A DNA stretch of 38,562 bases from positions 1 to 38,562 of the IMG/VR virus record IMGVR_UViG_3300029309_000107, one strand, 5' to 3'. The position numbers and the translations under genes are program-made. The first letter of the stretch is position 1; the number at the start of each line of letters is the position of its first letter. This DNA comes from a virus. Positions 6,889-35,306 of the stretch are shown here, piece by piece. The notes under the pieces are model-generated. The model did not search any database, was not told the origin of the DNA, and was given only the letters and a program-made list of their open reading frames with translations.

Positions 6889-7182
6889 ATGGAGTGGTTC
6901 AACCTAATTGCAGAATTAGGTGTACCTATCGCTGGAGCCCTAGTCATGGCTTACTTTATCTTTCTTGTTATGAAACAGCTCATGGACGGTCTGGTGGCTG
7001 AAATAAAGGTAGTACAAGGAATAACGCAAATGCTTATCACGAGAGCTTCTATTATGAACAACGATATGATTCGTATAGATACCAGCGTGTCTAGCGCTCT
7101 TGATCTTAGCCCAGATTTAAATCGTATAGCCAGAGCAGAGAACTTTGTTGAAGACGGCAAGATAGACGCCAGGAGAGACTGA
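6889..7182 (+). CDS. Single-pass membrane protein (YvrJ-like)
   Basis: A 97-residue protein starting right after the preceding stop. ELGVPIAGALVMAYFIFLVMK is an N-terminal membrane helix preceded by few residues, followed by a helical soluble tail that contains NNDMIRIDTSVSSALDL. The start resembles YvrJ-type small membrane proteins (xxGFPIxVxxYLLxR). It is a diverged paralogue of the next protein: same length, same membrane start and a matching DMIRxxxxVxxxLxL block. Confidence 0.6.
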   Translation: MEWFNLIAELGVPIAGALVMAYFIFLVMKQLMDGLVAEIKVVQGITQMLITRASIMNNDMIRIDTSVSSALDLSPDLNRIARAENFVEDGKIDARRD

Positions 7183-7466
7183 TGGATATAGTTCAGATAG
7201 TTTCAGATTTTGGATTTCCTGTCGTCATGGTTGTTGGTCTGGGTTACTTTGTATATTTTGTTTGGCAAACGGTTACAAATGTTATTGATCCAGCAGTACA
7301 AGAGATGAAAGCCACAATCATACGACTCACTGATCAGCTTCGTCTTTTAGATCAAGACATGATCAGACTTCAACAAAAAGTGAATACGGTGTTAGAATTA
7401 AAAGAAGAACATAAATTAAAAGATCCTGATGAAAACTTGGAAAGCGTACAAAAGAAGACAGATTAA
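7182..7466 (+). CDS. Single-pass membrane protein, paralogue of its upstream neighbour
   Basis: A 94-residue protein with SDFGFPVVMVVGLGYFVYFVW as an N-terminal membrane helix and a long soluble helix (EMKATIIRLTDQLRLLDQDMIRLQQK). It matches the preceding protein in layout and in the DMIRLxxxVxxxLEL block, so the pair probably arose by tandem duplication and may form hetero-oligomers. Overlap of one base before and 38 bases with the CsgF-like gene after it places it in the same translational unit as the curli-like genes. Confidence 0.6.
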   Translation: MDIVQIVSDFGFPVVMVVGLGYFVYFVWQTVTNVIDPAVQEMKATIIRLTDQLRLLDQDMIRLQQKVNTVLELKEEHKLKDPDENLESVQKKTD

Positions 7467-7917
7467 AACAATATTGATATTCATTATTGTTGTTAGTGTT
7501 TTATTTTTCTTCCCAGCTTTCTTGCTTGGTGATGAGATGGTGTTTAAATTTAAGTCACCAAGTTTTTCTGGTCTAAACACTTCGCAACATTATCTTACAA
7601 TCGAGAACCAACAGTTCTCTAGAAAGCAAGCTATAGAAGATGACAAGCAAGCTTTGTTAGATGAAGCTGAAAGAGAGGCCAATAACAGTACCCTAGCTAG
7701 ATTTATTAGGAACCTAGAGTCAAGGGTGTACGCTAAATTATCTTCTCAGTTGGTAGAAAGTTTGTTTGGTGAAAACCCACAAACGTCTGGTTCTATAGAA
7801 CTAGAGGGCAACACCATAGAATACGAAGTTGACGATGAGTACATTACACTAACGGTGACAGATGAAAAAGGTGAAACAACTACTATCACTTTCCCTCTTA
7901 ACAGCTTTACTTTCTAG
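7429..7917 (+). CDS. csgF: Curli assembly factor CsgF homologue
   Basis: A 162-residue secreted protein. Residues 1-35 form a signal peptide (basic start, long Ile/Val/Leu/Phe core, AFLLGDE around the cleavage point). The mature start MVFKFKSPSFSGLNTSQHYL matches the N-terminal region of CsgF (FxFxNPxFGGNxxxxxxLL), the stretch that in E. coli inserts into the CsgG pore and forms a second constriction. The middle is charged and helical, and the C-terminal strand pair (EYITLTVTDEKGETTTITFPL) matches CsgF's ...LxVTDxKTGxTSTIxV end. CsgF normally sits at the cell surface on CsgG and couples it to curlin nucleation. It overlaps csgG by 56 bases. The N-terminal half fits CsgF less closely than CsgG fits its family, so this is slightly less certain. 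Confidence 0.8.
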   Translation: MKTWKAYKRRQIKTILIFIIVVSVLFFFPAFLLGDEMVFKFKSPSFSGLNTSQHYLTIENQQFSRKQAIEDDKQALLDEAEREANNSTLARFIRNLESRVYAKLSSQLVESLFGENPQTSGSIELEGNTIEYEVDDEYITLTVTDEKGETTTITFPLNSFTF

Positions 7918-8671
7918 CTGCGTTCTACTTGACTCCGAATACTCGCTAGAAAACTTTAAGATCACCCGATTAGCAGAGATAGCTTCTGTTATACACACGG
8001 AACTCTGGGAGTTACCGCAACCGAAAACTAAACCTGTTGTTGCAGTCTATCCCACCTCTTTTTTAGATCAAACAGGTCAACGTCGCAGCAACAGTTCTTT
8101 TGCTACGTTTAGCACGGCTGTTACCCAAGCGCCATACACACTTCTGATACAAGCGCTCAAGCACACTGCGCAAGGTGATTTCTTTGAAGTTGTCGAACGG
8201 ATCGGTCTCGATAACCTAAGTAAAGAACGCCAACTCATTCGTTCTACTAGAGAAAGTTTCGATGAACCGCAAAAGCTAAAACCGTTAATGTTTGCAGGGA
8301 TTATTTTTGAGGGAGCAGTGGTAAGTTACGAAAGCAACATAAGAACAGGCGGTACCGGGGGCAGAGTATTAGGCATCGGCATGAGCAGAAGCTATCGACA
8401 AGATACCGTTACCGTAAGTCTTCGAACCGTATCTGTTTTGACAGGACGCATACTAACAGAGGTTACGACGACCAAAAGTATACTAAGTGTTGGTATCAAC
8501 GAAGATGTGTTTAGGTTTGTGTTTAATCAAACTGAACTTGTCGAGGTAGAAAACGGTAACGTCGAGAACGAATCAATCACCATAGCGCTACAGTCTGCTA
8601 TTGAAATGGCAGTTTTAAAGACAGTCGAAAAAGGTATAATAAAAAATTACTGGAGTTACAAGGATGTTTAA
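7862..8671 (+). CDS. csgG: CsgG-type outer-membrane secretion pore lipoprotein
   Basis: A 269-residue lipoprotein, close to E. coli CsgG in length. The signal peptide ends in lipobox LSSC with Cys20. Recognisable CsgG blocks follow in order: VAVYPTSFLDQTGQ, FSTAVTQAPYTLLIQALKH, FEVVERIGLDNLSKERQLIR, FAGIIFEGAVVSYESNIRTGG, RVLGIGMSRSYRQDTVTVSLRTVSVLTG, LTEVTTTKSILSVGINEDVFRF and IALQSAIEMAVLKTVEKGI. CsgG forms a nonameric beta-barrel in the outer membrane that exports unfolded curlin. In the constriction loop the FSTAV block is kept but the residue before Phe is Thr where E. coli has Asn, and the E. coli Tyr position is not conserved by my alignment. It overlaps csgF by 56 bases and the curlin-like gene by 8. 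This is the firmest call in the locus. Confidence 0.93.
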   Translation: MKKVKQLLSLSLLTALLSSCVLLDSEYSLENFKITRLAEIASVIHTELWELPQPKTKPVVAVYPTSFLDQTGQRRSNSSFATFSTAVTQAPYTLLIQALKHTAQGDFFEVVERIGLDNLSKERQLIRSTRESFDEPQKLKPLMFAGIIFEGAVVSYESNIRTGGTGGRVLGIGMSRSYRQDTVTVSLRTVSVLTGRILTEVTTTKSILSVGINEDVFRFVFNQTELVEVENGNVENESITIALQSAIEMAVLKTVEKGIIKNYWSYKDV

Positions 8672-9365
8672 ATATTTTTTATTGTTCTTTGCTGGCTTTA
8701 TTTTTTCAGCAGACAATGAAACGTCAATCGATCAAGTTGGAAACACTATAAATATTGATGTAGAACAATTAGGTTCTGGCAACTTAATAGGTGGTGCTAC
8801 AGCGGCAGCGGGCAGTATGACGCCTTTAGATTTAGACGGTGTGACAATGACATTAGATATCAATCAAATAGGTTCGAGCAACTTATTTAGAGGAGATATC
8901 TATGCAGACTCGTACACGGGTTTCTTTGAGTTTAGCGGTTCTTCAAATATTTTTGATATTCAGACTGACCCAAGCAACACCTACGGAGCTGATTCAAGCA
9001 ACGTCAACATACAAGTCACAGGATCTAGTAACGACATGTCATTAGACCAAGCAACAAACGCTATGGCGTCTACGCTTGACTTAGATTGGATAATCAACGG
9101 TTCAAACAACACCATAGATTCTGACATAGATGTAGACTTAGCTACTAACTACATGGATATAGACGGGTCTGATAATACGATAAACTATAACGGAGATGGT
9201 TTTCAAGGCGGCTACTTTTATTTAGATCACACAGGTGGTTCAAGAACGTTAAATGTTACACAAGCTTCTACTTTGGATAACGATTGGTTACGGGTCATTA
9301 GTAACGGCTCAAATGGAACTTTCTGCATTATCCAAAACGACCAAGGCACCTCAACAAGCTGTTGA
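8664..9365 (+). CDS. Curlin-like secreted repeat protein (CsgA/CsgB-like)
   Basis: A 233-residue protein with a 15-residue signal peptide (MFKYFLLFFAGFIFSA) and a body of repeats rich in Asn, Gln, Ser, Gly and Asp. Units such as NIDVEQLGSGN and LDINQIGSSN fit the curlin repeat S-x5-QxGxGN; later units are looser (VNIQVTGSSND, WIINGSNNTID, MDIDGSDNTIN), which fits a beta-solenoid. It ends in a lone Cys. It lies directly after csgG with an 8-base overlap, as expected for an exported substrate. It is longer and more acidic than CsgA, and the repeats are irregular, so amyloid formation is a prediction. Confidence 0.75.
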   Translation: MFKYFLLFFAGFIFSADNETSIDQVGNTINIDVEQLGSGNLIGGATAAAGSMTPLDLDGVTMTLDINQIGSSNLFRGDIYADSYTGFFEFSGSSNIFDIQTDPSNTYGADSSNVNIQVTGSSNDMSLDQATNAMASTLDLDWIINGSNNTIDSDIDVDLATNYMDIDGSDNTINYNGDGFQGGYFYLDHTGGSRTLNVTQASTLDNDWLRVISNGSNGTFCIIQNDQGTSTSC

Positions 9366-10404
9366 CGTTGGAGCAGTAGAAGAAGTATCGGGCTTTGCTC
9401 AAATAGAAAGAGACGAATCTTTTAATGTGATTCAAGATTTTGTTGTGCAATCGTACGACAAAGCACAAACCGAAGCGGGTCGCATGGGTATACGCTTCGT
9501 CGACGATACAACTATTAAGATCACCGAAAACTCCATGGTCATCATAGACGAGTTTGTCTTTGATCCAGATCCTTCTAAATCAAAATTAGCAGTTAACTTC
9601 TTAAAAGGTACAGCTCGTTTTACCACTGGGCTTACTGGCAAAGTGGCTAAAGAGAACATGGTGTTACGCACTAATTCAGCTACCGTTGGTATAAGAGGCA
9701 CAGACTTCAGCGTTACTGTAAATCCAGATACTTCAGAGTCTTTGTTTATATTACTGCCAGATCAAGACGGTGCACCATCGGGTGAGATATCGGTAACAAC
9801 CGACATGGGCACGGTTGTTCTAAACCAAGCCTTTCAAGCCACTACCACCACTACATTAGAAAGCGCACCCAGCGAACCAGTGATACTAGACCTGTCGTTA
9901 GATTTTATTGACAACATGCTTATTGTAACGCCACCCAAACGCTCCAGATCCTTTGACGAAGAACAAGGGACTACGGAAACCGTAGATCCAATACTGGACT
10001 TCAACGAGCTAGACATAGATTATTTAGCAGAAGAAAACTTAGGTGAAGAAGGACTAGAGTTTACCGAGCTAGACTACGATGCACTAAACGTAAACTTCTT
10101 AGAAGATCTGTTAGATATCATCAGCGAACTAGATAAAATAGACGATGAAGACCGATTAGCACAAGAAGCAACCACAACGAGTATAAAAGGCACGGCGGTA
10201 GGACAAGATACAAAAACACAAATAACTACAATAGTTACTGGAGAAAAGATAAAATTAAGTAGAGCTGTAGGATCAACTGCTTCAATTAACATAGATAGTA
10301 GCAACAGCTACACCGTTGTATTAGAACAAGACGGTGTGATGAACGAAGTTAAAGTCAACGGCGGTAGCGATTCAACCATCGTCATTAGACAGGGGAATGG
10401 TTAA
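9253..10404 (+). CDS. Secreted FecR-domain protein with curlin-like C-terminus
   Basis: A 383-residue protein. The ATG chosen gives a classical signal peptide (MLHKLLLWITIGYGSLVTAQ); this places 113 bases over the 3' end of the curlin-like gene in another frame. An alternative ATG at 9313 would remove the signal peptide. Residues ~40-185 read as a FecR-type domain: GMGIRFVDDTTIKITENS (with one substitution), KLAVNFLKGTARFTTGL and VLRTNSATVGIRGTDFSV, the last being the hallmark of FecR-like beta modules. A very acidic linker (residues ~230-300) leads to a final ~40 residues with curlin-like units: VVLEQDGVMNEVKVN and STIVIRQGNG. It may be a surface partner or nucleator exported through CsgG; that role is inferred. 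No sigma/anti-sigma membrane segment is present. Confidence 0.75.
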   Translation: MLHKLLLWITIGYGSLVTAQMELSALSKTTKAPQQAVDVGAVEEVSGFAQIERDESFNVIQDFVVQSYDKAQTEAGRMGIRFVDDTTIKITENSMVIIDEFVFDPDPSKSKLAVNFLKGTARFTTGLTGKVAKENMVLRTNSATVGIRGTDFSVTVNPDTSESLFILLPDQDGAPSGEISVTTDMGTVVLNQAFQATTTTTLESAPSEPVILDLSLDFIDNMLIVTPPKRSRSFDEEQGTTETVDPILDFNELDIDYLAEENLGEEGLEFTELDYDALNVNFLEDLLDIISELDKIDDEDRLAQEATTTSIKGTAVGQDTKTQITTIVTGEKIKLSRAVGSTASINIDSSNSYTVVLEQDGVMNEVKVNGGSDSTIVIRQGNG

Positions 10405-10439: not shown

Positions 10440-12326
10440 ATGCCTTTACAAAAAAATACATTTGTCCCTGGTATAAACAGAGAAGGCACCGCTTACGATA
10501 ACGAGGGCGGCTGGTTTGACTGTAATTTAATTAGATTTCGTGCGGGCAGGCCAGAGAAGTTTGGTGGTTGGGGAAAGCTTTTAAGTGCCACATATCAAGG
10601 AACAGCTAGAGCACTGCATAATTTTATATCTCTAGCAGGCACTAAATACTTAGGTATAGGGACTCATTTTAAATATTATATTGTAGAAAATAACGATGCT
10701 TTTAATGACATAACGCCTATAAGAAAAACAGTTGGTGCTGGACAAACCGATACTACAGCGACTACTTTTGCAAAAGTTGGTAATGATGACGCTACCATAA
10801 CGGTCACTAACAACTCTCATGGTGCAGTACAAAATGATTTTGTTACTTTTTCTGGGGCAGCGTCATTAGGCGGCAACATCACCGCCGCTGTTCTCAATCA
10901 AGAATATCAAATAGCTACCGTAACGGACGGTAATACATACACAATAGAAGCTAAAGATACATCTGGTAATACAGTATTAGCTAACTCATCTGACTCAGGA
11001 ACTGGAGGGGGTAGCGTTGTTTCCGCTTATCAAATTAACACTGGATTAGATGTTTTTGTATCTTCTACTGGTTGGGGAGCAAACAGTTGGGGATCTAGCG
11101 GTTGGGGATCAACAACTCCTTTATCAGATACTAATCAACTTAGAATTTGGACACATGATAATTATGGAGAAGATTTAATATTAAATGTTAGAGGTGGCGG
11201 TGTTTATAGGTGGGTAGAGAATAATGGCACATCTACTAGAGCCAGTTTACTATCATCAGCCACTGGAGCTAATCAAGTTCCAACAGCGGCTCTTCAAGTA
11301 TTAACATCTGAGGTTGATAGGCATTTAATAGTTTTAGGTGCGGATCCACTTAACACCAGTAACGTTAGAACAGGAACGCTGGATCCAATGTTGGTAGCAT
11401 TTAGCGATCAAGAAAATCCATTAGACTTTGAAACAAAAGCAACTAACTCTGCTGGAGAGTTAAGACTATCATCTGGTTCCCTAATCGTAGGAGCTGTTAA
11501 GTCTAGGCAAGAAACAGTTATCTTTACTGATACATCTGTTTACAGTATGCAGTTTATAGGGCCGCCGTTTACTTTTGGCCTTAACTTAATAAACGAATCA
11601 ACTGGTTTGATAGGTCCCAAAGCAGCCGTGACAGCACCTAACGGTGTGTATTACATGAGTTACGATTCTTTTTATGTATACAGTGGTAGTGTGCAACAAA
11701 TACCGTGCACGGTTAGAAACTATGTGTTTAGTGACATAAATCAATCTCAAGCATACAAAATAAATGCATTTACTAACAACAAACACTCTGAGGTTGGTTG
11801 GTTCTATCCGTCAGCTAGTTCTACTGAAATAGATAGGTATGTAATTTATAACTACGCAGAAAGCGTTTGGTATTATGGACAACTATCAAGAACTGCTTGG
11901 TTAGACTCAAACATAGAAAGTTATCCACAAGCTGTCTCTGGAGGATACTTATACGAACACGAAAAAGGTTTTGATAACGATGGCTCTGAGATGACTAATG
12001 TATTTATAGAATCCTCCGACTTTGATATAGGCGATGGCGATAGTTTTTCTTTTTTACGAAGACTTATACCCGATATAAAATTTTTAGACGATGATGCTAG
12101 TTCTAACGTAAACATAGTTACTAAAACAAGAAACTTCCCTGGAGACTCTTTGAGTACAGACAGCACTTCTCTTATTACGCCATCAACTCAACAAAGTCAC
12201 ATCAGAGCTAGAGGTAGACAAGCTGTTGTACGCATTTCATCTAACGATGGAAATAGTGGAAACGTTGGTGTTGGTTGGCGTCTTGGAGCTATTAGATACG
12301 ATATAAGGCCAGACGGTAGAAGATAA
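10440..12326 (+). CDS. P22 gp10-like DNA stabilization / tail hub protein
   Basis: A 628-residue protein starting MPLQKNTFVPGINREGTAYD, followed by GGWFDCNLIRFRAGRPEKFGGW. This start is characteristic of a large phage protein annotated as a packaged-DNA stabilization protein related to P22 gp10, which plugs the portal and carries the tail needle. The rest is rich in beta strands with blocks such as SLIVGAVKSRQETVIFTDTS and GPKAAVTAPNGVYYMS, as in beta-propeller-like tail hub proteins. It would argue for short-tailed (podovirus) morphology. The 35 bases before it hold no gene. The next gene's ATG overlaps its stop (TAATG). Confidence 0.7.
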   Translation: MPLQKNTFVPGINREGTAYDNEGGWFDCNLIRFRAGRPEKFGGWGKLLSATYQGTARALHNFISLAGTKYLGIGTHFKYYIVENNDAFNDITPIRKTVGAGQTDTTATTFAKVGNDDATITVTNNSHGAVQNDFVTFSGAASLGGNITAAVLNQEYQIATVTDGNTYTIEAKDTSGNTVLANSSDSGTGGGSVVSAYQINTGLDVFVSSTGWGANSWGSSGWGSTTPLSDTNQLRIWTHDNYGEDLILNVRGGGVYRWVENNGTSTRASLLSSATGANQVPTAALQVLTSEVDRHLIVLGADPLNTSNVRTGTLDPMLVAFSDQENPLDFETKATNSAGELRLSSGSLIVGAVKSRQETVIFTDTSVYSMQFIGPPFTFGLNLINESTGLIGPKAAVTAPNGVYYMSYDSFYVYSGSVQQIPCTVRNYVFSDINQSQAYKINAFTNNKHSEVGWFYPSASSTEIDRYVIYNYAESVWYYGQLSRTAWLDSNIESYPQAVSGGYLYEHEKGFDNDGSEMTNVFIESSDFDIGDGDSFSFLRRLIPDIKFLDDDASSNVNIVTKTRNFPGDSLSTDSTSLITPSTQQSHIRARGRQAVVRISSNDGNSGNVGVGWRLGAIRYDIRPDGRR

Positions 12327-13881: not shown

Positions 13882-14221
13882 AGGCGGATTAACAGAATGG
13901 TTTGGCAAAGGTCCCAAAGGAGATTGGGTTGATATCGGTGCGCCAAAAAAGAAAGGTAAGTTTCAAGCTTGTGGACGCAAATCTGCATCTAAAAGCAAAA
14001 GAAAATATCCTAAGTGCGTACCGAGATCAAAAGCAAAATCTATGACTAAAAGCCAAATAAGATCTGCGGTATCTAGAAAAAGAGCAGCTGGCAATCCAGG
14101 GGGCAAACCCACTAACGTCAAGACTATTGTTAAGAAAAAAGAAGGCGGCATAGTAACTAAATTAAACAGAGGTTGCGGAGCTGTTATGCCTAACAGAAGA
14201 AAACGAACAAGCTATTCTTAA
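13868..14221 (+). CDS. Lysine/arginine-rich basic protein with Cys
   Basis: A 117-residue basic protein. It opens with GGLTEWFGKGPKGDWVDIGA, then FQACGRKSASKSKRKYPKC, KAKSMTKSQIRSAVSRKRAA and GNPGGKPTNVKT, ending near GGIVTKLNRGCGAVMPNRRK. This layout (EWF...WVDI...CGR...YPKCVP...AVxRKRAAGNPGGKP) is a conserved small phage family of unknown function. Three to four Cys may bind zinc or form disulfides. It closes the basic-protein cluster and abuts the i-spanin gene (TAATG overlap). Confidence 0.7.
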   Translation: MAKPKGGLTEWFGKGPKGDWVDIGAPKKKGKFQACGRKSASKSKRKYPKCVPRSKAKSMTKSQIRSAVSRKRAAGNPGGKPTNVKTIVKKKEGGIVTKLNRGCGAVMPNRRKRTSYS

Positions 14222-14613
14222 TGAGTAAGATATTGTTAGGAGTTATAGGAGCACTGCTATTAGCTTTATCTTTTTTATGGATACAAAACTCAAGACTATC
14301 TTCTCTTAACCAAGCTTTTGAGTTAAGAGATCAAGAACAAAAAGCTGCGATAGAATCTTTGCAATCTGATTTTAAAGTGCAGACCGAAGGGCTACTAGCC
14401 ATACAATCGCGTAACCAAGAAATAGAAGCAGAGATGTCTAGATACTTAGATATCTTTAAACGACATAATCTAAGTAAACTAGCCGCAGCTAAACCCGGAC
14501 TTATAGAAACCAGAGTAAACAATGGCACTAAAGATGTATTCGACAGTATTGAAGCAGACAGCCGTAGCATTGATCGTCTTGATGACGGTCTACAGTTGCA
14601 GTCTGATTCCTAA
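14221..14613 (+). CDS. i-spanin (Rz-like)
   Basis: A 130-residue inner-membrane spanin. An N-terminal signal-anchor (ILLGVIGALLLALSFLWIQ, residues 4-22) is followed by a periplasmic coiled coil (LNQAFELRDQEQKAAIESLQ onward) and a C-terminal part with KPGLIETRVNNGTKDVFDSI, a block common in Rz-type proteins of marine phages. It works with the outer-membrane spanin encoded in the overlapping frame downstream to fuse inner and outer membranes at the end of lysis. The 92-base overlap with the lipoprotein gene is the classic Rz/Rz1 arrangement. Confidence 0.8.
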   Translation: MSKILLGVIGALLLALSFLWIQNSRLSSLNQAFELRDQEQKAAIESLQSDFKVQTEGLLAIQSRNQEIEAEMSRYLDIFKRHNLSKLAAAKPGLIETRVNNGTKDVFDSIEADSRSIDRLDDGLQLQSDS

Positions 14614-14899
14614 AAAAGTAGACGTTATATCTAAACCGTTAGATAAGCAGATAGCGCAGCCTATGTTGCCTAGAGGTATAGATTTAAAAGAGCCGTATTG
14701 GTATGTGGTGTCCGAAAAGAACATTGATGAGTTCTTAGATAGACTAAAAAAAGAAGAAGGCAGAATTGTTTTTGTCGCTATGTCTATACCAGACTACGAA
14801 CTCATGTCCTACAATATGCAAGAACTCAAACGTTATATTAATGAGCTTAAAGAAGTTGTTGTGTATTACAGAAAAGTAACGACTAAGGAGACAGAATGA
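14522..14899 (+). CDS. o-spanin lipoprotein (Rz1-like)
   Basis: A 125-residue lipoprotein whose start lies inside the i-spanin gene in a different frame. Hydrophobic segment residues 13-24 ends in a lipobox-like VYSC with Cys26, so it should be lipidated and sent to the outer membrane. After it come a Pro-containing stretch and EPYWYVVSEKNIDEFLDRLK, FVAMSIPDYELMSYNMQELK and RYINELKEVVVYY. It is longer than lambda Rz1; the extra C-terminal domain is typical of the marine phage version. Another in-frame ATG four codons later would give the same mature protein. It overlaps the lysozyme gene by 4 bases (ATGA). Confidence 0.75.
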   Translation: MALKMYSTVLKQTAVALIVLMTVYSCSLIPKKVDVISKPLDKQIAQPMLPRGIDLKEPYWYVVSEKNIDEFLDRLKKEEGRIVFVAMSIPDYELMSYNMQELKRYINELKEVVVYYRKVTTKETE

Positions 14900-15339
14900 A
14901 GACATCGCAAGAAGGTATAGATCTAATAAAACACTTCGAAGGCTGTGAGTTAGAAAGTTATCGTTGTTCTGCTAACGTTCTCACCATAGGTTATGGCACC
15001 ACTAAAAATGTGGTTGAAGGCATGAAAATAACGCAAAACCAAGCAGAAGAAATGTTAATGAAAGACCTAGAAGAGTTTGAAGAATACGTTGAGGATCTGA
15101 TAGATGTTAAGTTAGATCAACATCAGTTTGATGCTTTAGTGGCTTGGACATATAACTTAGGACCCACTAATTTAAAGACATCTACGTTAAGAAAGGTTTT
15201 AAACAAGGGGGCATACGATGATGTGCCAGAACAAATAAAACGTTGGAACAAAGCAGGCGGTCAAGTTTTGAAAGGATTAGTGCGCAGAAGAGATGCTGAA
15301 GCACTACTATTCGAAGGTAAAAAATGGCATACTGTTTAG
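14896..15339 (+). CDS. T4-type lysozyme endolysin (GH24)
   Basis: A 147-residue muramidase of glycoside hydrolase family 24. The active site reads EGCELESYRCSANVLTIGYG: Glu15 is the catalytic acid, Thr30 is the conserved Thr, and the usual Asp position is Cys24, with the T4 spacing E-9-x-6-T kept. FDALVAWTYNLGPTNLKTST and LKGLVRRRDAEALLFEG are conserved GH24 C-lobe blocks. It cleaves peptidoglycan. There is no signal peptide or signal-arrest anchor, so it needs a holin to leave the cytoplasm. It completes a spanin-spanin-lysozyme cassette. Asp-to-Cys at this place is known in other phage lysozymes, so activity is expected. Confidence 0.9.
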   Translation: MKTSQEGIDLIKHFEGCELESYRCSANVLTIGYGTTKNVVEGMKITQNQAEEMLMKDLEEFEEYVEDLIDVKLDQHQFDALVAWTYNLGPTNLKTSTLRKVLNKGAYDDVPEQIKRWNKAGGQVLKGLVRRRDAEALLFEGKKWHTV

Positions 15340-23385: not shown

Positions 23386-23718
23386 TCACGCCCTCGGTGA
23401 TGAGATCACCTGAATCTCTAGACCTGGATACAAAGCCTCAACAAGTTTCTTTTTCAATTTAAATACATCCGTCTGAATACCTTTGGTATCTTCGACGACT
23501 TCTTCGCCTTGTGCGTTTTTGTATCTGAAGTCTGCCTTATACAAACAGATCTTTTTACCTTCGACGAAACAAGGAAAAGGCGGATGCACCTCTATATTAG
23601 AGACAGCTCCAGCAGTTTCTAGTTCGCGTAAGAATTTGTATCTGGCTGCTTCTAGTTTGCTATCGAACACATAGCCGTCGAGTTTTACTTTGATTGCTCC
23701 GTATTTATTGTATGCCAT
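23386..23718 (-). CDS. DUF1064 phage endonuclease-like protein
   Basis: A 110-residue protein read from ATG 23718 (MAYNKYGAIKVKLDGYVFDS); a longer frame would extend into the next gene. Motifs KLEAARYKFLRELE, YKADFRYKNAQG and EVVEDTKG fit a restriction-endonuclease-like fold: an early Glu, then D in ADF and E-x-K in EDTKG. Proteins of this family (DUF1064) are found in phage replication modules and are thought to be nucleases or junction-processing enzymes. It ends 14 bases from the convergent large virion gene; no strong terminator separates them. Confidence 0.75.
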   Translation of the reverse strand: MAYNKYGAIKVKLDGYVFDSKLEAARYKFLRELETAGAVSNIEVHPPFPCFVEGKKICLYKADFRYKNAQGEEVVEDTKGIQTDVFKLKKKLVEALYPGLEIQVISSPRA

Positions 23719-23720
23719 AA

Positions 23721-24572
23721 CTAAAAAGGTAGAGGGGTTAAGCCAGTGATCCATTCGTGGTCTTCGCATTCCTCTGCCTGCATTTTAACATTTAACATCC
23801 TTTGATCTTTGTTGCATCTCCAGGTGGCTCCGCTTGCCTCTATAATCGGTTGACTGTACTTGCAATTACGGCAGTTCTTTTCTGTTGGATATTCTCTTTG
23901 CATGTAAACATCACGCGAACCTTTGGGCATGTTCTTAATGCGCCAATCGGTTTCTGGTATCAAACTTTCTGGCGGTTGCTCTGCGGTAATGATTCGTCTT
24001 GCTTTCTCTACCATAGACTTATACATCTCCTCGTTTTTATCTATCACTTCTGTATAGATGTCAGAGTTGTTCTTGTTGTAGACCAAAGCTAAAGACTTAT
24101 CTAAATTAAAAGCACCCATGTAACAATGTATCTGAGCTTCGTATTCCATAGACCAGCGCTCGTAACTTTTCTCAGATACTAAGTTGTTGAAACGCTTTTC
24201 ATTTGCGGTTTTTATCTCAAGTATCATAGGTTGTTCTTCTTCAGGCAGTCCCTTTACTACGCCGTCTATGTGGCCAGAGAAGTGATCGCCAAGCAAAGAC
24301 GCGGTGTATTGATTCCCCCTTTTATCTTTCTCAAACACCTCAATGTCTTCTATTTTTTTTAAGTAATCAACTATCTGATCTTCTAGCAGATTACCTAGAT
24401 CCAATATTCTAGAAATCCTGGGCTCAAAGTTTGTTGGTTCTAAACACCAACGAAAGTTTAGCCACAACATCCTTTCATCTGGATTGCCGATCTGACTCAT
24501 ACCAAGGTATGGTCTGCGCTTCTCTGGCTCTGACAGCATGACATGATCTATCATGTTATTGACTTCGCTCAT
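23721..24572 (-). CDS. PD-(D/E)XK exonuclease (RecB/Cas4-like)
   Basis: A 283-residue nuclease. The core motifs are FSGHIDGVVKGLP (Asp of the metal site) and MILEIKTAN (E-x-K), with YEAQIHCYMGAF as the following conserved Gln/Tyr helix, which is the RecB-type PD-(D/E)XK pattern. The C-terminus carries Cys residues (KNCRNCKYSQP, ATWRCNKD, EECEDH) that may hold zinc or an iron-sulfur cluster; no fourth upstream Cys of a classical Cas4 cluster is evident. It likely resects DNA ends for recombination together with the Sak4-like ATPase and helicase. It overlaps the helicase gene by 4 bases. Confidence 0.8.
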   Translation of the reverse strand: MSEVNNMIDHVMLSEPEKRRPYLGMSQIGNPDERMLWLNFRWCLEPTNFEPRISRILDLGNLLEDQIVDYLKKIEDIEVFEKDKRGNQYTASLLGDHFSGHIDGVVKGLPEEEQPMILEIKTANEKRFNNLVSEKSYERWSMEYEAQIHCYMGAFNLDKSLALVYNKNNSDIYTEVIDKNEEMYKSMVEKARRIITAEQPPESLIPETDWRIKNMPKGSRDVYMQREYPTEKNCRNCKYSQPIIEASGATWRCNKDQRMLNVKMQAEECEDHEWITGLTPLPF

Positions 24573-26239
24573 AAGTAAACCTCTTTGTTAGCAGTAACTA
24601 ATTTTTTTACATTAAAATACTTGCCTTCTTTCTTGACGCTAAGTGACCTCACATGATCCATAGCACCGTCGTTTATCTTAGCAACAGCGTCTTGAGATCT
24701 TCTGGGCACACCCCATTGCTTGGTGTTCACAATCCGACACCAATAGTTCTTAGCTAGTCCGTTCATCCTTGGGTGCTCAAACATCAATGGCATTGACCTG
24801 GGCAAGAAACTATCTTCTATCTGAAAGAACACACGACAATAATCGTTACCGTTCTTAGACGTCGCTAAACTAGCGTTAACGCCAACTACGTTTTCTTCCT
24901 TGGCTTTCTGTCCAGGCTTCTCGTCTGAGATCACAGCGCCTTTTGCTGCCTTGGTTTGCTTGGCAACCTTTCTCTCTTCTATCGGAGCTAGATACTGAGC
25001 AAACATAGATACTGGGAACTCAGTCAAACACTCAACACACTTCTTAGCATGCGGTGGACTAATCGCTAAACACTCACCGCATATCTTTGGTCGTCTAACT
25101 TTTACTTCTTGATCTGGCTGAGCTGTATCAATACAGCCGTGACGCGCTATGTTCTCGCCGTAGTCTAATAATAAACAGTTGTCCTTGCCTGGATATAAAC
25201 GCATGCCACGACCGCACATTTGGACGTATAAGCCCAAACTTTTAGTAGGCCTTAGCATCGCTATACAATCTGTTCTCGGAGCGTCCCAGCCCTCTGTAAG
25301 GACGCCTACGTTGCATATAGCGTTGATATCACCAGACTCAAACTGTTCTAATATAATCTTTCGTTCTTCTCCAGGCGTATCGCCTGTCAATAGTTTGGCT
25401 TTGATGCCGTGATCCAGTAGGTGGTTTGTTAGTTTGGTTGCGTGCATAACCGATACACAAAAGAACACGCTTGCAGTTCTGCCTTTGGTAAAAGCTTTGT
25501 CTAGCCAATCGTTGATGATAGCTATCATGGTTCTATCATCCATGGCTAGTTTCTCTAAGTCAGATTCTTTGTAATCACCACCTTTGAATTTAAGTTTAGC
25601 TTTGCTTGCATCTATGATGGTGTCGTCAGCAACTTGATACGAAGTTATTCTAGCCAAGTAACCTTGCTCTATTAGATCTGGTATCTTTGCCTGGTAAGCA
25701 ACGTCGTAAAAGAAGTGATCTTTACGCTTGCCGTAGATGTAGCCTTGCCCCATGCGATACGGTGTTGCTGTGCATCCCATAACGCGCATGGCGTAATCGT
25801 CTGACAGCTCTGATATTATCTTTTGATAACGAGTCTGATCGTCTGGCGCTAGGTTGTGTGCTTCATCTATGATGGCGTAATCAAACTTGCCTACTTTCTT
25901 CAGCCTAGATCCTGACGCTATCGTGTCCCTGGATGCAACCAATATCTGAGAATCCGTCTCTTGTCTGCCAAGTCCAGCAGACAACACGCCAACTGGAGCA
26001 TCAGGCCAAACATTCTTTATCTTGTTCTCAGCTTGCTCTATCAGTTCTTGTCTGTGTGCTAGAACTAAAAACCTAGCGTCTGGGTACGTTTCTATCTGTC
26101 GTTTGATGACATTAGAAAAGATAACTGTTTTGCCAGATGCTGTTGGTAAATTTAGTAACGGTCTTCTATCAATAGACTCTGAATCAAACCAATTTATTAA
26201 AGAGGTTACGGCGTCTTCTTGATACGGTCTTAGCTTCAT
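24569..26239 (-). CDS. SF2 DEAH-box DNA helicase
   Basis: A 556-residue superfamily 2 helicase. In order: RPYQ (residues 4-7), Walker A TASGKT (33-38), DEAH in YAIIDEAHNLAP, CTATPYR (motif III), then the second RecA lobe with FCVSVMHATKLTNHLL, NVGVLTEGWDAP and QMCGRGMRLYPGKD (motif VI). A Cys pair set (KICGECLA, KKCVECLTEFP) follows and resembles a zinc ribbon. The C-terminal ~120 residues have no motif I can name. It likely unwinds DNA in replication or recombination. It shares a leftward operon with nucleases and Sak4. Confidence 0.9.
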   Translation of the reverse strand: MKLRPYQEDAVTSLINWFDSESIDRRPLLNLPTASGKTVIFSNVIKRQIETYPDARFLVLAHRQELIEQAENKIKNVWPDAPVGVLSAGLGRQETDSQILVASRDTIASGSRLKKVGKFDYAIIDEAHNLAPDDQTRYQKIISELSDDYAMRVMGCTATPYRMGQGYIYGKRKDHFFYDVAYQAKIPDLIEQGYLARITSYQVADDTIIDASKAKLKFKGGDYKESDLEKLAMDDRTMIAIINDWLDKAFTKGRTASVFFCVSVMHATKLTNHLLDHGIKAKLLTGDTPGEERKIILEQFESGDINAICNVGVLTEGWDAPRTDCIAMLRPTKSLGLYVQMCGRGMRLYPGKDNCLLLDYGENIARHGCIDTAQPDQEVKVRRPKICGECLAISPPHAKKCVECLTEFPVSMFAQYLAPIEERKVAKQTKAAKGAVISDEKPGQKAKEENVVGVNASLATSKNGNDYCRVFFQIEDSFLPRSMPLMFEHPRMNGLAKNYWCRIVNTKQWGVPRRSQDAVAKINDGAMDHVRSLSVKKEGKYFNVKKLVTANKEVYL

Positions 26240-26493
26240 TAGTGTTTAAGTTCCATCTCCTCAGATTTTTCTTGTTCGTTCATCTCTACTTTTATGTTTC
26301 TCATCTCTTGTTCCCAACACATGGCTATCATGCCCGCTGCGGTCACAGGACAATCTGAGAAGTCATAGTTCAAAGATATAGCAAACCTGGTGATCGTGCT
26401 ACAAAACTCTCCAGGATCGAAGTCCTCGCGTTTAGCAAACTCCTGAAGATCTTCGCTAAGTCTTCGTGCTAAATCTTTTTTAAATTCACTCAT
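26239..26493 (-). CDS. Small hypothetical protein, replication operon
   Basis: An 84-residue mainly helical acidic protein with one Cys near residue 30 and another at ~45. It overlaps the helicase start by one base and its upstream gene by 8 bases, so it belongs to the replication/recombination operon. I recognise no family. Confidence 0.5.
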   Translation of the reverse strand: MSEFKKDLARRLSEDLQEFAKREDFDPGEFCSTITRFAISLNYDFSDCPVTAAGMIAMCWEQEMRNIKVEMNEQEKSEEMELKH

Positions 26494-26668
26494 CTGTTAG
26501 CATCCTCGCGTTTACTATGGCCAGTTCAGCATCTTTAACCGCTTTAGTTAGCGTTGGGTTAAATAAAGAATCTTTGTTCTGCCATACTCTGTGCAGTTCA
26601 CATATTACTTTTTCAGCGTTTGTGATTACGCTCTTGTCCTCCAAGGACAAAGTTTCCTTGTTTTGCAT
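26486..26668 (-). CDS. Small hypothetical helical protein
   Basis: A 60-residue helical protein (NAEKVICELHRVWQNKDSLF in the middle, ending NARMLTDE). A GAGAGGCG sequence before the ATG can serve as ribosome-binding site. It precedes the 84-residue protein in the same operon. No family recognised. The 67 bases upstream of it hold no gene I can support. Confidence 0.5.
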   Translation of the reverse strand: MQNKETLSLEDKSVITNAEKVICELHRVWQNKDSLFNPTLTKAVKDAELAIVNARMLTDE

Positions 26669-26735
26669 GTCGCCTCTCTGTTATTTCTCTCTGGTAGGCA
26701 GTTTGACGACATGCCTAGGTCGCCTTAGATGAGGG

Positions 26736-27233
26736 TTACTTCATCCAATCGTAATCTTTATCAGAAGTTTTAGATTCAGTTTTCTCCACTGCCTCTACTT
26801 CTTTAGGATCTTGTTCTACGTCTGGCAGTTTGTTGCCTTTGGTAACGAAGTCAGCAATCTTGTTGCTGTCAGCATAACCGTCTGTTCCAGGTTCTATTTT
26901 GATCTTTGCCAAGAATGGCTCGTTCATCATTTCATCTAAGGACTCACGATTAAAAGTTGCATCAGGATTTAAGCCAAGCGCTTTACGCCAAGACTTAACT
27001 CGCCTAGCAGTTACCGTTACCGCATTCCCTTCAACGGTAAAGTATTCCCATACCTTTCTACCAGCATGCGATGGGCCTACAACATCGAACTCAACCTTAA
27101 TAGATTGGTTCCCAGCTTTCGAAGTGTGTTGATTCCATTGATTAGCCACCATTTCATATTGCCCAGCAGGCATGGCAGAAAAATCATTGTCCTCTTCAAC
27201 ATTCGTCAGATCTATACTAAAGTCATCTGTCAT
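26736..27233 (-). CDS. DUF669 ssDNA-binding-like protein
   Basis: A 165-residue protein: DFSAMPAGQYEMVANQWNQH, then IKVEFDVVGPSHAGRKVWEY, and RVKSWRKALGLNPDATFN. This is the DUF669 layout: an OB-like fold with PxGxYxxxVxxxE-type start, GRKxxxxF strand and a helical lobe, followed by an acidic tail ending SDKDYDWMK. DUF669 proteins act as phage ssDNA-binding proteins and are usually beside a Sak4-like ATPase, as here. The acidic tip matches SSB-like tails that recruit partners. The final residues are DYDWMK. Confidence 0.8.
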   Translation of the reverse strand: MTDDFSIDLTNVEEDNDFSAMPAGQYEMVANQWNQHTSKAGNQSIKVEFDVVGPSHAGRKVWEYFTVEGNAVTVTARRVKSWRKALGLNPDATFNRESLDEMMNEPFLAKIKIEPGTDGYADSNKIADFVTKGNKLPDVEQDPKEVEAVEKTESKTSDKDYDWMK

Positions 27234-27339
27234 TTTTTATATCCTCCAGGGCACAATCAGTGCACATAAGAAGTCCGTCGTGTTTTACTTCAGCGTCTTT
27301 TTCACCGCACTCGTCACACACAAAGATCTCCTCATGCAC
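27223..27339 (-). CDS. Tiny zinc-ribbon protein, GTG start
   Basis: A 38-residue protein between the Sak4-like and DUF669 genes. It reads VHEEIFVCDECGEKDAEVKH then DGLLMCTDCALEDIKNDR, with two CxxC pairs 18 residues apart as in a zinc ribbon. The GTG overlaps the ATPase stop by 8 bases, and its stop lies 11 bases inside the DUF669 gene, so translation would be coupled on both sides. No clear ribosome-binding site. The Cys pairs make a chance frame unlikely. Confidence 0.6.
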   Translation of the reverse strand: MHEEIFVCDECGEKDAEVKHDGLLMCTDCALEDIKNDR

Positions 27340-28099
27340 TTTTGGCACCCATTAAGTTATTGATTGATTTTTTATATTCGTCGATAAACGAATCCCATTT
27401 GAGTTCTATCTTGTCAGGAAGAGGAACTCGACTCTTCGCATCGAAAGCCGGGGAGAACTTGGTAAACAGCATGCGATCGCCCATGGCAAGCGCTCGCGTT
27501 TGTTCGTTAAAGCCTGACCCCGACTTAGTGACACGAATCTGATGATTTGCAAACAGATTGAAGTCAACCCATTCTCTTATCTTGGATGCTACCTTCTTGT
27601 GAAGGTTTAGTTCCCATCGATCGTAAGGTTCTCTCTCTGGATCTGCAAATGTTCTGATAGCAACGTGAGACAGCAGTATCACGTTCATGTTCTTTTGGTC
27701 GTTTAAAACATCCAGGGCACGCAGAATCTTCTGAAAGCCCTCGGCTGTCATGGTGTACCCTTTACCATAGCCTATGTCTTCGATAGAACTTACGTTCTTC
27801 TGTCTGGCTACCTCTTCTTGGATCAGTTTCTCAGCCCAATCCGTGGTATCCAGGACAACAGTTTTAAAGTCGTGCTCTTCTTGCACGAGCTGTTTCAGCC
27901 TGTGCATGATGTCTTCAAACGATTCACACAAAGGAAACGAGGACGTGTTAACGTACCTCGTACCTTCCTCCGTCTTAATAAATATTGGCTTTGGAGCTCC
28001 CGCTGCAAAGGTAGTCTTACCTATGCCGTCTGTTCCGCCTACGTTCATCTTAACTGGCCCAGGATTCATGCCAGTTTGCACCTCATCTAATATACTCAT
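27332..28099 (-). CDS. RecA-like AAA ATPase (Sak4-like recombinase)
   Basis: A 255-residue P-loop ATPase. Walker A is NVGGTDGIGKTTFAAGAP (around residues 20-36), the Walker B region is FKTVVLDTTDW, and MNVILLSHVAIRTF is the sensor strand. This matches the AAA_24 / Sak4 group of phage proteins that anneal or exchange single strands in recombination. Its neighbours are a DUF669 ssDNA-binding protein, a tiny zinc ribbon, and an unknown protein upstream, as in other phages with this ATPase. It overlaps the upstream gene by 4 bases. Confidence 0.85.
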   Translation of the reverse strand: MSILDEVQTGMNPGPVKMNVGGTDGIGKTTFAAGAPKPIFIKTEEGTRYVNTSSFPLCESFEDIMHRLKQLVQEEHDFKTVVLDTTDWAEKLIQEEVARQKNVSSIEDIGYGKGYTMTAEGFQKILRALDVLNDQKNMNVILLSHVAIRTFADPEREPYDRWELNLHKKVASKIREWVDFNLFANHQIRVTKSGSGFNEQTRALAMGDRMLFTKFSPAFDAKSRVPLPDKIELKWDSFIDEYKKSINNLMGAKSA

Positions 28100-28542
28100 T
28101 TCTTCCTCTTCTCTAAAAAGTTAACGTAAGGACGATCAGATATCTCTGTCGTCAACGCTTGTGATAATTTTTGATAGTGACTAGGAAAGTTCTCAGCTAA
28201 AAGCGTCGTGTCTTTTTTGCTTTCCTTGTACTCTATATTGAAGGGAAATAAATTCTGAGGAATGGATCCCTCTGAATGTATCTTACCCACCAAGTCTTGA
28301 TCCCAGGATCTTTTGACGCGGTAATCTACTTTAATATCGAAATCGTATTCATCTAAGGACACGCGAGCAGCACCGCCTGTGTTGCTCATTTGGATTACTT
28401 TATCTTTAATCTTAGGATGTCTTGCAATAGCTATGTCTAGCTCTTTGCTTTCCTCACGCAATCTAGCCTGCAAAGCAAGATTGTTTTGTTTTCTGGTCAA
28501 GAGTTCCGCGAGGTCGTCAAACTCTCTGTCTGTTTCAGCCAT
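28096..28542 (-). CDS. Hypothetical protein, first gene of leftward replication operon
   Basis: A 148-residue protein with an N-terminal coiled coil (DLAELLTRKQNNLALQARLR) and a C-terminal part with VDYRVKRSWDQDLV and FPFNIEYKESKKD. A good AAAGGAGAAA ribosome-binding site precedes its ATG. It starts the leftward operon, divergent from the Cro-like gene. I have seen similar proteins upstream of Sak4-like ATPases, without known function. Confidence 0.55.
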   Translation of the reverse strand: MAETDREFDDLAELLTRKQNNLALQARLREESKELDIAIARHPKIKDKVIQMSNTGGAARVSLDEYDFDIKVDYRVKRSWDQDLVGKIHSEGSIPQNLFPFNIEYKESKKDTTLLAENFPSHYQKLSQALTTEISDRPYVNFLEKRKK

Positions 28543-28561
28543 ACTATTTTCTCCTTTATGG

Positions 28562-28625
28562 TGTTGAGGGTTGTAGGATTTTCTATGAAAAAATTATGAA
28601 ATAAAACGAGATACAACCCTCAACA
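28562..28625. promoter_or_regulatory. 14-bp inverted repeat in divergent control region (operator candidate)
   Basis: TGTTGAGGGTTGTA at 28562-28575 is matched exactly by its reverse complement TACAACCCTCAACA at 28612-28625, with 36 AT-rich bases between. It lies between the leftward replication operon (start 28542) and the rightward Cro-like regulator (start 28704). Two distant identical half-sites suit looping or cooperative repressor binding, most simply by the adjacent regulator. As RNA it could also be a hairpin; no T-tract follows, so it is not a terminator. Confidence 0.6.
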
Positions 28626-28703
28626 GAATCTAATTTATAGTTTTTAAAACTTTCTGTCAATAACTATTTTACTTTTTGTAATATTTATTTTAAAGTACCT
28701 ATT

Positions 28704-28910
28704 ATGAATTTATCCGAATATATTACCAAACGTGGAGAAGAACCTCTAGCAAAAGAACTAGATGTATCGGTAGCGACTGTTCAGTCCTGGCGATACGGAA
28801 GAAGGCAACCAACAGTGAGAATAGCAAAACAACTCATGATTATGACGAAAGGAGTCTTGAGTTGGGAAGATATCTATGGACCTGTGGAAGAAAATGCCTC
28901 TGCTTCTTAA
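28704..28910 (+). CDS. Cro/CI-type helix-turn-helix regulator
   Basis: A 68-residue protein consisting of one helix-turn-helix: EYITKRGEEPLAKELDVSVATVQSWRYGRRQP. LAKELDVSVATVQSWRYGRR is the HTH with the recognition helix at VATVQSWRYG, and the size fits Cro. No oligomerization or protease domain follows. It is divergent from the replication operon and overlaps the PrimPol gene by 35 bases. It probably switches the two divergent units, binding the nearby inverted repeat. No integrase is seen, so a lysogeny switch is not implied. Confidence 0.8.
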   Translation: MNLSEYITKRGEEPLAKELDVSVATVQSWRYGRRQPTVRIAKQLMIMTKGVLSWEDIYGPVEENASAS

Positions 28911-30900
28911 CGAAAATAAAACCCAAGAGAACGTTTCCGATGAGTCAAAGCAGGAAATGCTTTGGTCTTTTTGGGAAGAAGGATTCCACTTGATACCTTG
29001 TGGATCTCGCAACGAAATCATTCCAGAATACTTTCGCAAACGCCATCCGTTTGAAAGCGATGAGGTTCTGGCTGCTAAGTGGGCGAAGACACCAAGGGTC
29101 AAGTGGGAGACTTATCAAAGACGACAACCAACACAAGACGAATTGAGAGAGTGGTTGACTCGCTATCCAGGCGCAAACTGGGCAGCCATAACAGGCATAA
29201 CGTTTGTAGTTCTGGACTGCGATAGCCAAGAGGCGGTCGAGTTCGTAGAATCTGGGCAATTGACTCGATCGCCTTTAAAACAAAGGACTCCAAGGGGTGG
29301 CTATCATTATTTTTATCAAGTCAACGAAGGTCTCAACGTCAGAAACACGACGGGCAAACTGGACGTAAGAGGCGAAGGTGGCTACGTCATGGTGTCGCCG
29401 TCAAGAAACTACGGCTTCGAAACACCTGAAGGCGCACACATAAGAGATGTCGATGATTTGCCCATGCTCAACATGAACGACTTGAACACGATCCATGAGT
29501 TCAATCAGTCTGGAAAAGTACAACCGATCGGGGATGCCAAGAAGATTACACTGGATCCAGTCGGTGTTGGTCAACGTAACGACACGCTCGCTCGCCTGGT
29601 AGGCAAATGGATCCGTGAAGGCTGGGGTTATCGTGAGGTGTTGATCAAAGCGTTTGACTGGAATCAAACATTGCAACCGCCGTTGCCTCTGCCAGAAGTA
29701 TTGCAGACGGTCATGTCGATTACTCAAGGACACGTCAAGCGTAACCCAGAAGATACTGAAGCGGGCATCATGTCTTGGAAGACTAGCGAATGGCAAATAG
29801 ATCTCGGCGAAGAACTGAAAGAGATACTGGATCAAGAGGATCCAATCGTCGTACAAAAAGAACAAGACAATAAAGAAGACCCACTAGGCCTGAAAGCTTA
29901 CAACGATGAGTTTTGGACAGGCATTGAGTCTGGAACTATCGAACAATATTGGGGTGACTGTTTTATCTTTGAGCAATCCAGGTGTTTGTTGATCGGTAAA
30001 CCAAAGATTGGTAAGTCGCACTGGCTCGGTGCTTTTGCAGCAGCAGCAACCACTGGGCAGAAGTTCATGGGCATGCCGTTTACGAAACCGTGTAAGGTCA
30101 TGTGGCTCCAAGCAGAGATCATCCAGGAGTTTTTGAAAAACAGAATCGACACTTACTATCAGCCCTACGCACACGATCCAGACTTGATGGCGTTGGGGCA
30201 CGCCAACTTGATACCCACGGGCAGACTCAGAAAGAACATCATGCGTGACAAAGACATCAACGCGATTGCTGAAAGCATAGACTATCATCAGCCTGACATT
30301 GTGATGATTGACCCTATTATTAACTTCTTCGACGGAGAAGAAAACAGCAACCAAGAGATCCATAGCTTGTTGTCCAGAATAGATCGATTGATCGAATTGT
30401 TTGGTGTTGCGGTTATCATCGCGCATCACACAGGCAAAGAGCGAGCTGACGATGCATCGTTCATGTCGGCGCGTGGTGGTTCAGCGTTTGCTGGGTGGAT
30501 GGACTCTGGCATCAAGCTCATGGGACAAAGACCGAACGTGACTATGTTCTACGAGGCAAGAAATGCACGAGAACCTGAAACGCATTTGGCTCGGTTCGAT
30601 TTTGAAAAAGGGTTCTGGGATACGGTTGACTTTGATCAAGGCCCAGATGAAGTAGAGATTGCACAGAAAGTCGCAGATGCTATGGACAGAACGAAGTTCT
30701 ACACACGACAGGATCTAGAGATGTTAGCTCGGGAGGCACTCAAGGCAAACAATTTGCCGAGCGGAGAGAGGGCAGCTCGTTACGCGGTCAGTCATGTGCA
30801 GAAATATTTGGGCGATGTGGTCAAGACGAAAGCTATTCCAGGCAAGCAGACTTGGCACTATCGATTTGATAATCAAGGGCGTAAGCCTTGGGAGGATTAA
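28876..30900 (+). CDS. Primase-polymerase / RepA-like helicase fusion
   Basis: A 674-residue replication protein. The N-terminal half is a PrimPol-type primase: TPRVKWETYQ, ANWAAITGITFVVLDCDS with the D114-x-D116 metal site, TPRGGYHYFYQ with His144, and KLDVRGEGGYVMVSPSR. The C-terminal half is a RepA-like (SF4, AAA_25) helicase: Walker A IGKPKIGKS (373-381), Walker B PDIVMIDPI and VIIAHHTGKE. It should both prime and unwind. GGGAAG six bases before ATG 28876 supports this start despite the 35-base overlap with the regulator. Base composition is visibly richer in GC than the tail genes. Confidence 0.88.
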   Translation: MDLWKKMPLLLNENKTQENVSDESKQEMLWSFWEEGFHLIPCGSRNEIIPEYFRKRHPFESDEVLAAKWAKTPRVKWETYQRRQPTQDELREWLTRYPGANWAAITGITFVVLDCDSQEAVEFVESGQLTRSPLKQRTPRGGYHYFYQVNEGLNVRNTTGKLDVRGEGGYVMVSPSRNYGFETPEGAHIRDVDDLPMLNMNDLNTIHEFNQSGKVQPIGDAKKITLDPVGVGQRNDTLARLVGKWIREGWGYREVLIKAFDWNQTLQPPLPLPEVLQTVMSITQGHVKRNPEDTEAGIMSWKTSEWQIDLGEELKEILDQEDPIVVQKEQDNKEDPLGLKAYNDEFWTGIESGTIEQYWGDCFIFEQSRCLLIGKPKIGKSHWLGAFAAAATTGQKFMGMPFTKPCKVMWLQAEIIQEFLKNRIDTYYQPYAHDPDLMALGHANLIPTGRLRKNIMRDKDINAIAESIDYHQPDIVMIDPIINFFDGEENSNQEIHSLLSRIDRLIELFGVAVIIAHHTGKERADDASFMSARGGSAFAGWMDSGIKLMGQRPNVTMFYEARNAREPETHLARFDFEKGFWDTVDFDQGPDEVEIAQKVADAMDRTKFYTRQDLEMLAREALKANNLPSGERAARYAVSHVQKYLGDVVKTKAIPGKQTWHYRFDNQGRKPWED

Positions 30901-31130
30901 TGAAGCTTGACTACATATCGTTGAAAGAAGCCTGTATCGATACGTTCTTGGGACTGCCGATCAATTGGTTCTTATCGTATGCGGTGTTAGCAACGATGCT
31001 GTTATTGGCGTTTGACAATGCGTTTATTATCTCGGCTACGCAAGTGGCTGTGCTCACGGTTTTTGCTATCGTTCGCAAGTATCTCATCAGAACTCACTAC
31101 AAGAGGTTGCATGAATCCGTACAAGATTGA
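30900..31130 (+). CDS. Small membrane protein (DUF7220-like)
   Basis: A 76-residue protein with two hydrophobic segments (NWFLSYAVLATMLLLAF and TQVAVLTVFAIVRKYLI) between short polar ends, ending in Arg/His-rich KYLIRTHYKRLHE. The layout matches a small phage family I recall as DUF7220. ATG 30900 is chosen because GGAGG is six bases upstream and it overlaps the PrimPol stop by one base (TAATG). Membrane role unknown. Confidence 0.65.
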   Translation: MKLDYISLKEACIDTFLGLPINWFLSYAVLATMLLLAFDNAFIISATQVAVLTVFAIVRKYLIRTHYKRLHESVQD

Positions 31131-31947: not shown

Positions 31948-31958
31948 GCTGAAAAACG

Positions 31959-32122
31959 GTTGTGCAACGATGATTAGCGATTTTGCACAGCGTCTGAAAA
32001 AAGTCAATAAAATCAATAGGTTTTTGATTGTGCAGTTGTGCAGTTGCACATGCGTGCACATGCGCACAGCGTGCTCTGAAAGCCTTATGTTTATTGGGGT
32101 GTGCAGTTGTGCAGTTGTGCAC
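31959..32122. repeat. TTGTGC / GTGCAGTTG iteron-like repeats (origin candidate)
   Basis: The 265-base gap 31948-32212 contains an 18-base direct repeat TGTGCAGTTGTGCAGTTG at 32029-32046 and again at 32100-32117, itself a two-unit tandem. Between and around are GGTTGTGCAACG at 31959 and the palindrome-rich TGCACATGCGTGCACATGCG after 32046. No gene with support lies here. Short tandem repeats next to a PrimPol-helicase suggest a replication origin or a terminase-binding site ahead of terS; neither can be shown from sequence. Confidence 0.55.
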
Positions 32123-35145: not shown

Positions 35146-35269
35146 ACTTCCCACTTTAGGAGAAATAAAGTTTGGGGTCGAGAGAGTCGACAGAAAGAGT
35201 ATAAGTCAGTTGTGCGTCTTTTACCAAGTGCGATTGTGCGAACTGGCGTAAAAATTTTTTGCATAGAAC

Positions 35270-35300
35270 AAAAAACTCCAGGATTTTTTAGATCCTGGAG
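35270..35300 (-). terminator. Intrinsic terminator of leftward small operon
   Basis: On the minus strand CTCCAGGAT (35300-35292) pairs with ATCCTGGAG (35284-35276) around a 7-base loop, followed by six T (35275-35270). It is 7 bases past the stop of the gene ending at 35307. Confidence 0.8.
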
Positions 35301-35306
35301 CTTACG

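Follow-up and report, generated by a model that had tools for sequence, protein, structure and literature searches.

A curli-type (type VIII) export locus conserved among phages, with an exported FecR-domain protein as candidate nucleator or anchor

The virus record IMGVR_UViG_3300029309_000107, from a marine phage, is 38,562 bases long (the whole of this stretch is the window analyzed here), and between its positions 6889 and 10404 it carries six consecutive genes that form a curli-type (type VIII) export module. The last four overlap by 56 nucleotides (nt) (csgF/csgG), 8 nt (csgG/curlin-like) and 113 nt (curlin-like/fecR), and it was to these four (7429–10404) that an initial annotation, made from the sequence alone, had confined the locus. 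Those four open reading frames are present as it described them, but the extent it gave was too small, since the two small genes at 6889–7466 are also part of the curli module. The genes are the following:

6889–7182, + strand: small membrane protein 1 (97 amino acids (aa); one N-terminal transmembrane (TM) span, a coiled coil and a ...DARRD tail; phrog_18771, 9e-23)
7182–7466, + strand: small membrane protein 2, related to protein 1 (94 aa; phrog_18771, 6.8e-26)
7429–7917, + strand: csgF homologue (162 aa; PF10614, 8.8e-20)
7862–8671, + strand: csgG homologue, a lipoprotein-type outer-membrane pore (269 aa; PF03783, 3.1e-47)
8664–9365, + strand: curlin-like exported protein (233 aa; signal peptide, predicted beta-solenoid with GxxN turns, C-terminal Cys pair)
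9253–10404, + strand: exported FecR-domain protein (383 aa; PF04773, 3.2e-10)

The csgG product scores 161 bits against its Pfam profile (cut-off 20.8), the CsgG profile retrieves the solved CsgG structures at 8.8e-61, and the lipobox cysteine, Cys20, to which the initial annotation had drawn attention, is invariant across the alignment. The csgF product scores 71.6 bits (Pfam cut-off 25.8) and is laid out as an N-terminal membrane segment followed by the plug-like segment DEMVFKFKSPSFSG, a helix and a C-terminal beta part. Its N-terminal FKSPSFSG aligns with the part of E. coli CsgF seated in CsgG (structure 6l7a), and its profile picks out CsgF in the CsgG-CsgF complex with a value of 0.0015, chiefly via this N-terminal stretch; the protein is a CsgF homologue whose N-terminus is predicted to plug the pore, as had been proposed. 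The csgG gene is split into two open reading frames in contigs L106 and L134, which reflects either real breakage or sequencing error. A genome scan for bacterial relatives of CsgG gave only three loci, of which one probably belongs to a phage contig within a metagenome-assembled genome (MAG). A full phage-type type VIII secretion system (T8SS) with a cyclase gene is present in L166 (NZAX01000026.1), which is filed as a Flavobacteriaceae MAG and is probably a phage contig.

Modeling supports the third of the four proteins as a curlin-like exported beta-solenoid: from 40 aligned sequences AlphaFold2 predicts such a fold for the 8664–9365 product with a pLDDT of 86.9 and a pTM of 0.84. The protein contains two Q.G..N motifs where 0.12 are expected (a number reached by 0.5% of shuffles), and two cysteines near its C-terminus are invariant in the 40 sequences. 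Half of its homologues (20 of 40) match Curlin_rpt (PF07012) at E ≤ 1, with a best value of 3.6e-5, and the homologue in methylophage Melnitz clears the family cut-off at 26.0 bits. A structure search with the model turned up numerous generic beta-helices but nothing specifically related. The CsgA fibril (8enq) was rejected as a specific match since its Z of 12.0 comes with a root-mean-square deviation (rmsd) of 8.8 and ranks under such generic helices (SufB/SufD, Z 17), and a PDB sequence search with the curlin-like profile found mostly antibody chains, which we took as chance.

The order csgF-csgG-curlin-fecR is retained in all 46 viral contigs with enough flanking sequence (these were picked by CsgG or FecR, so that the test is unbiased only for the remaining module genes), and all six module genes are under purifying selection. 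Their ratios of nonsynonymous to synonymous substitution (dN/dS) lie in the range 0.036–0.083: 0.036 and 0.051 for the first and second small genes, 0.083 for csgF, 0.052 for csgG, 0.045 for the curlin-like gene and 0.078 for fecR. These values rule out decayed or non-functional genes, and the profile matches and synteny rule out chance open reading frames. Three operon genes fall in PHROGs families of unknown function (phrog_35372, phrog_20175 and phrog_37870), and promoter-like sites did not rise above shuffled sequence. By homology, order and selection, csgF, csgG, the curlin-like gene and fecR are one conserved, selected unit, a phage T8SS locus with two candidate substrates, much as the initial annotation had read it.

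From one end to the other, the FecR protein comprises a signal-like N-terminus, a FecR domain (residues ~38–204), a linker (~205–310) and a C-terminal beta tail (~311–383). PF04773 is found in 42 of 42 homologues, and the predicted fold of the domain resembles the PupR signaling domain (Z 15.7) and putative anti-sigma factors, with Z of 14–16 over these matches; the linker is acidic (31 D/E and 5 K/R in 106 residues) and modeled with low confidence. Hydropathy indicates no TM segment past residue 30, and the protein has no second Pfam domain, including an anti-sigma N-terminus. Because of these two features the protein is unlikely to act as a classical transmembrane FecR: the layout of transmembrane anti-sigma proteins, a cytoplasmic sigma-binding part and a single TM segment before the FecR domain, is not that of the phage protein. 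The published label of iron-dependent regulator (PMC9599517) is in our opinion doubtful here.

The first 113 nt of fecR (9253–9365), which encode the signal-like N-terminus, lie in another frame within the 3′ end of the curlin gene, and this dual-coding stretch is conserved in most relatives. When the curlin frame was recoded synonymously (82 distinct, mutually related sequences), the fecR frame was mostly closed or its hydrophobic peak lowered, with a median of 3% of trials matching the real value in each case, so the open frame and the hydrophobic character of the signal-like segment are preserved in spite of the curlin frame that overlaps it. The tail has three invariant residues, Q359, G361 and Q380, with a curlin-like look, and in most family members a home-made curlin unit profile finds its best match in the last ~35 residues. 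Residues 36–129 superpose on the "cell surface anchoring domain" of 5ix9 (Z 7.2, 72 of 76 residues, rmsd 2.6; a Z under 8 may mean a common arrangement only). We read that domain as the part by which a large adhesin is retained at the cell. Domains with this retaining function have been described (PMC13090378). Judged from its sequence, the FecR protein gives the impression of being secreted and of serving as an anchor or nucleator.

One or two membrane/coiled-coil genes of ~95 aa stand upstream of csgF in 44 of the 46 contigs, the same pair is present in the Pelagibacter myophage HTVC008M and in Melnitz, and within the phage collection such genes occur in T8SS phages only (their alignment is too variable to serve as a query for scanning the collection). 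Small protein 1 has a TM hydropathy of 2.3. The upstream gene or genes of the published phages were labeled histidine kinase (PMC9599517), and if these correspond to the small genes, an identity that we infer from position, the label is not supported: no kinase domain (HisKA/HATPase) is among the 25 Pfam families listed for 26 homologues of 80–110 aa, and on this basis we set it aside.

The gene set as such is already published for phages, and the locus studied here is a further member; the initial suggestion that the full set might be new therefore falls. csgF and csgG were reported in pelagimyophages in 2020 (PMC7029224), and in 2022 CsgF, CsgG, CsgA/B and FecR were found together in podovirus-type pelagiphages, with an ocean-wide distribution of the T8SS, its expression in metatranscriptomes, and superinfection defense, sibling capture and import as proposed roles (PMC9599517). 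These HTVC023P-type pelagiphages (defined by a DNA polymerase A similarity of at least 45%) have the same order as the studied record, from small upstream gene(s) through CsgF, CsgG and curlin-like to FecR, but the studied record is without the second curlin gene and the adenylate cyclase, has a Prim-Pol, and shows no DNA polymerase A within its 38.5 kb. The order is also that of HTVC008M gp011–gp019 (46.5% identity in CsgG and 33.5% in FecR), which has in addition a PA14-curlin protein and a CHASE2-adenylate cyclase, and of Melnitz (41.5% in CsgG). The former protein, gp018 (L016:8462-9787), is a second curlin gene product in which curlin repeats are joined to a PA14 domain, possibly an adhesin on a curlin stalk to judge by these domains, and it fits what would be expected for surface display. 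Amyloid subunit genes were said to be lacking in the myophage Melnitz (PMC9004378, 2022); contrary to that report, two of its open reading frames, L017:6746-7465 and L017:8524-9540, both pass the Curlin_rpt cut-off. With the E. coli csgBAC/csgDEFG system the phage shares CsgG and CsgF homologues and a cargo predicted as a curlin-type solenoid; the phage differs in having no N22-like signal, in showing no CsgC or CsgD homologue among the proteins scanned, and in having a FecR protein in the place of CsgB.

From these likenesses we infer how the locus may act. The host is probably a marine bacterium of the SAR11 type. Late in infection CsgG would insert into its outer membrane, with CsgF lining and capping the pore, and the curlin-like protein would cross it and stack as a short fiber on the infected cell. 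In E. coli a chain CsgG-CsgF-CsgB-CsgA has been established by pulldown (PMC6957492), and for this reason we put the FecR protein in the CsgB position, as a nucleator that would link CsgF to the fiber; its FecR domain would remain at the cell envelope while its C-terminal beta tail seeded or held the fiber, and the two small membrane proteins may play a helping part in the inner membrane. What the phage most likely gains is an altered cell surface, either so that siblings aggregate or so that competing phages are blocked. Taken as a whole, this account, in which a curlin-like fiber is displayed on the infected cell, is the likeliest of those considered and has slightly better than even chances in our estimation. 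A more specific version, which we consider rather unlikely, is that the FecR domain, folded in the periplasm, would be too large for CsgG, that the ~100-residue acidic linker would run through the CsgG-CsgF pore and that the beta tail outside would nucleate and hold the fiber; if true, it would merge curli export with LapA-type retention, in which a folded N-terminal anchor stays in the periplasm and a linker crosses an outer-membrane pore.

Several observations count against an exported fiber with FecR as its nucleator. The curlin-like protein itself matches Curlin_rpt only at E 0.38 (11.2 bits, under the cut-off of 20.7), and by eye it is without the N-terminal secretion segment (N22) of CsgA, since its first repeat strand begins a few residues past the signal peptide; the bacterial curlins in L167 likewise seem to be without an N22-type segment, which may not be universal among curlins. 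In the initial label "FecR/curlin" the FecR half stands, by PF04773 and by fold, and the curlin-like tail is weakly backed: 1.6–3.7% of shuffles reach the median curlin score of the tail, an hhalign comparison with the curlin-like family gives a probability of 1.4% (not significant), and Curlin_rpt matches no member of the FecR family. CsgE (PF10627), stated to be absent in the initial annotation, is indeed not found in the studied record, its sister contig (G015), HTVC008M or Melnitz, with a positive E. coli control, though E. coli can do without CsgE if CsgG is plentiful (PMC6957492). Finally, no fiber or amyloid has been demonstrated for any phage in the literature cited here, and OM43 cultures infected by Melnitz did not clump (PMC9004378).

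Other uses of the pore have been proposed. CsgG, with or without CsgF, could be an outer-membrane hole that hastens depolarization or lysis, as put forward for Melnitz (PMC9004378) and as the initial annotation also suggested, and the operon does belong to the late structural genes, with small membrane proteins close by, among them one that has a weak holin match (phrog_4898, 9.3e-4). This role is weakened by the phage's own lysis cassette at 14221–15339, two overlapping Rz-like spanins and an endolysin that are conserved in the sister contig, and it gives no need for conserved curlin-like and FecR genes; we think it quite improbable. The idea that an ungated CsgG admits nutrients, cofactors or siderophores during infection (PMC7029224, PMC9599517) agrees with the missing CsgE gate; it leaves unexplained why CsgF, the curlin-like solenoid and FecR, each subject to purifying selection, are invariably linked to the pore, and we give it little credence.

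The cargo genes, too, can be read otherwise. They lie between the tail-fiber genes and a head-tail "stabilization" structural gene, so their products might decorate the virion or aid adsorption with no coat on the cell; signal peptides and an export pore, however, indicate passage through the envelope and not cytoplasmic virion assembly, and in HTVC008M and Melnitz the module adjoins replication-type genes, so that this, too, seems a poor prospect. Less remote, and still unlikely, is a FecR protein that is neither cargo nor anchor but a sensor or regulator, of iron or as partner of a CHASE2-adenylate cyclase. Its PupR-like fold would suit such a role, FecR genes adjoin CHASE2 kinases in bacterial biofilm operons (PMC5192318), and the cyclase gene is downstream in HTVC008M and in many contigs (38 of 80 with room for it). 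Its signal-like N-terminus and the lack of a later TM segment or further domain argue otherwise, as does the studied lineage, where the cyclase is missing while FecR stays selected.

The structural genes around the module are distant relatives of those of HTVC023P/HTVC027P (31–33% for 10440–12326), and the replication half encodes a Prim-Pol, a helicase, a Cas4-type exonuclease and a Sak4-like protein; PolA (PF00476) was not found in the 38.5-kb record, which is possibly incomplete. The sister contig shares 6169–12706 (~6.5 kb, including the T8SS) at 87% DNA identity yet bears PolA, where the replication genes of the studied record (23386–32000) are of Prim-Pol type, and the same operon recurs in a second Prim-Pol contig (G026). 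A T8SS module next to differing replication modules is as expected from exchange between phages. A chimeric contig, joined at the structural/replication junction at ~23.4 kb, was rejected as an explanation, as independent contigs cross this point at 95–98% identity; 15.3–17.9 kb is crossed by no close contig, and G026 nevertheless has the operon. Elsewhere in the record, ~31104–31952, which holds most of a PAPS-reductase-like gene (31012–31947), is missing from L174 and L175 (otherwise 98–99% identical) and kept in L177, a recent gain or loss, and ARAGORN predicts a tRNA-Phe with the unusual anticodon AAA at 35248–35320 on the − strand.

Our account thus departs from print in its reading of the FecR protein and of the upstream genes, in the Melnitz curlin genes, and in the Prim-Pol background of the phage. 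It casts doubt on the published FecR and histidine kinase roles, gives evidence of the module in phages that replicate by another system, and proposes a testable model in which an exported FecR protein is nucleator or anchor. Phages that give a streamlined host a surface-export system would alter the view of how phages affect cell-cell contact in the open ocean.

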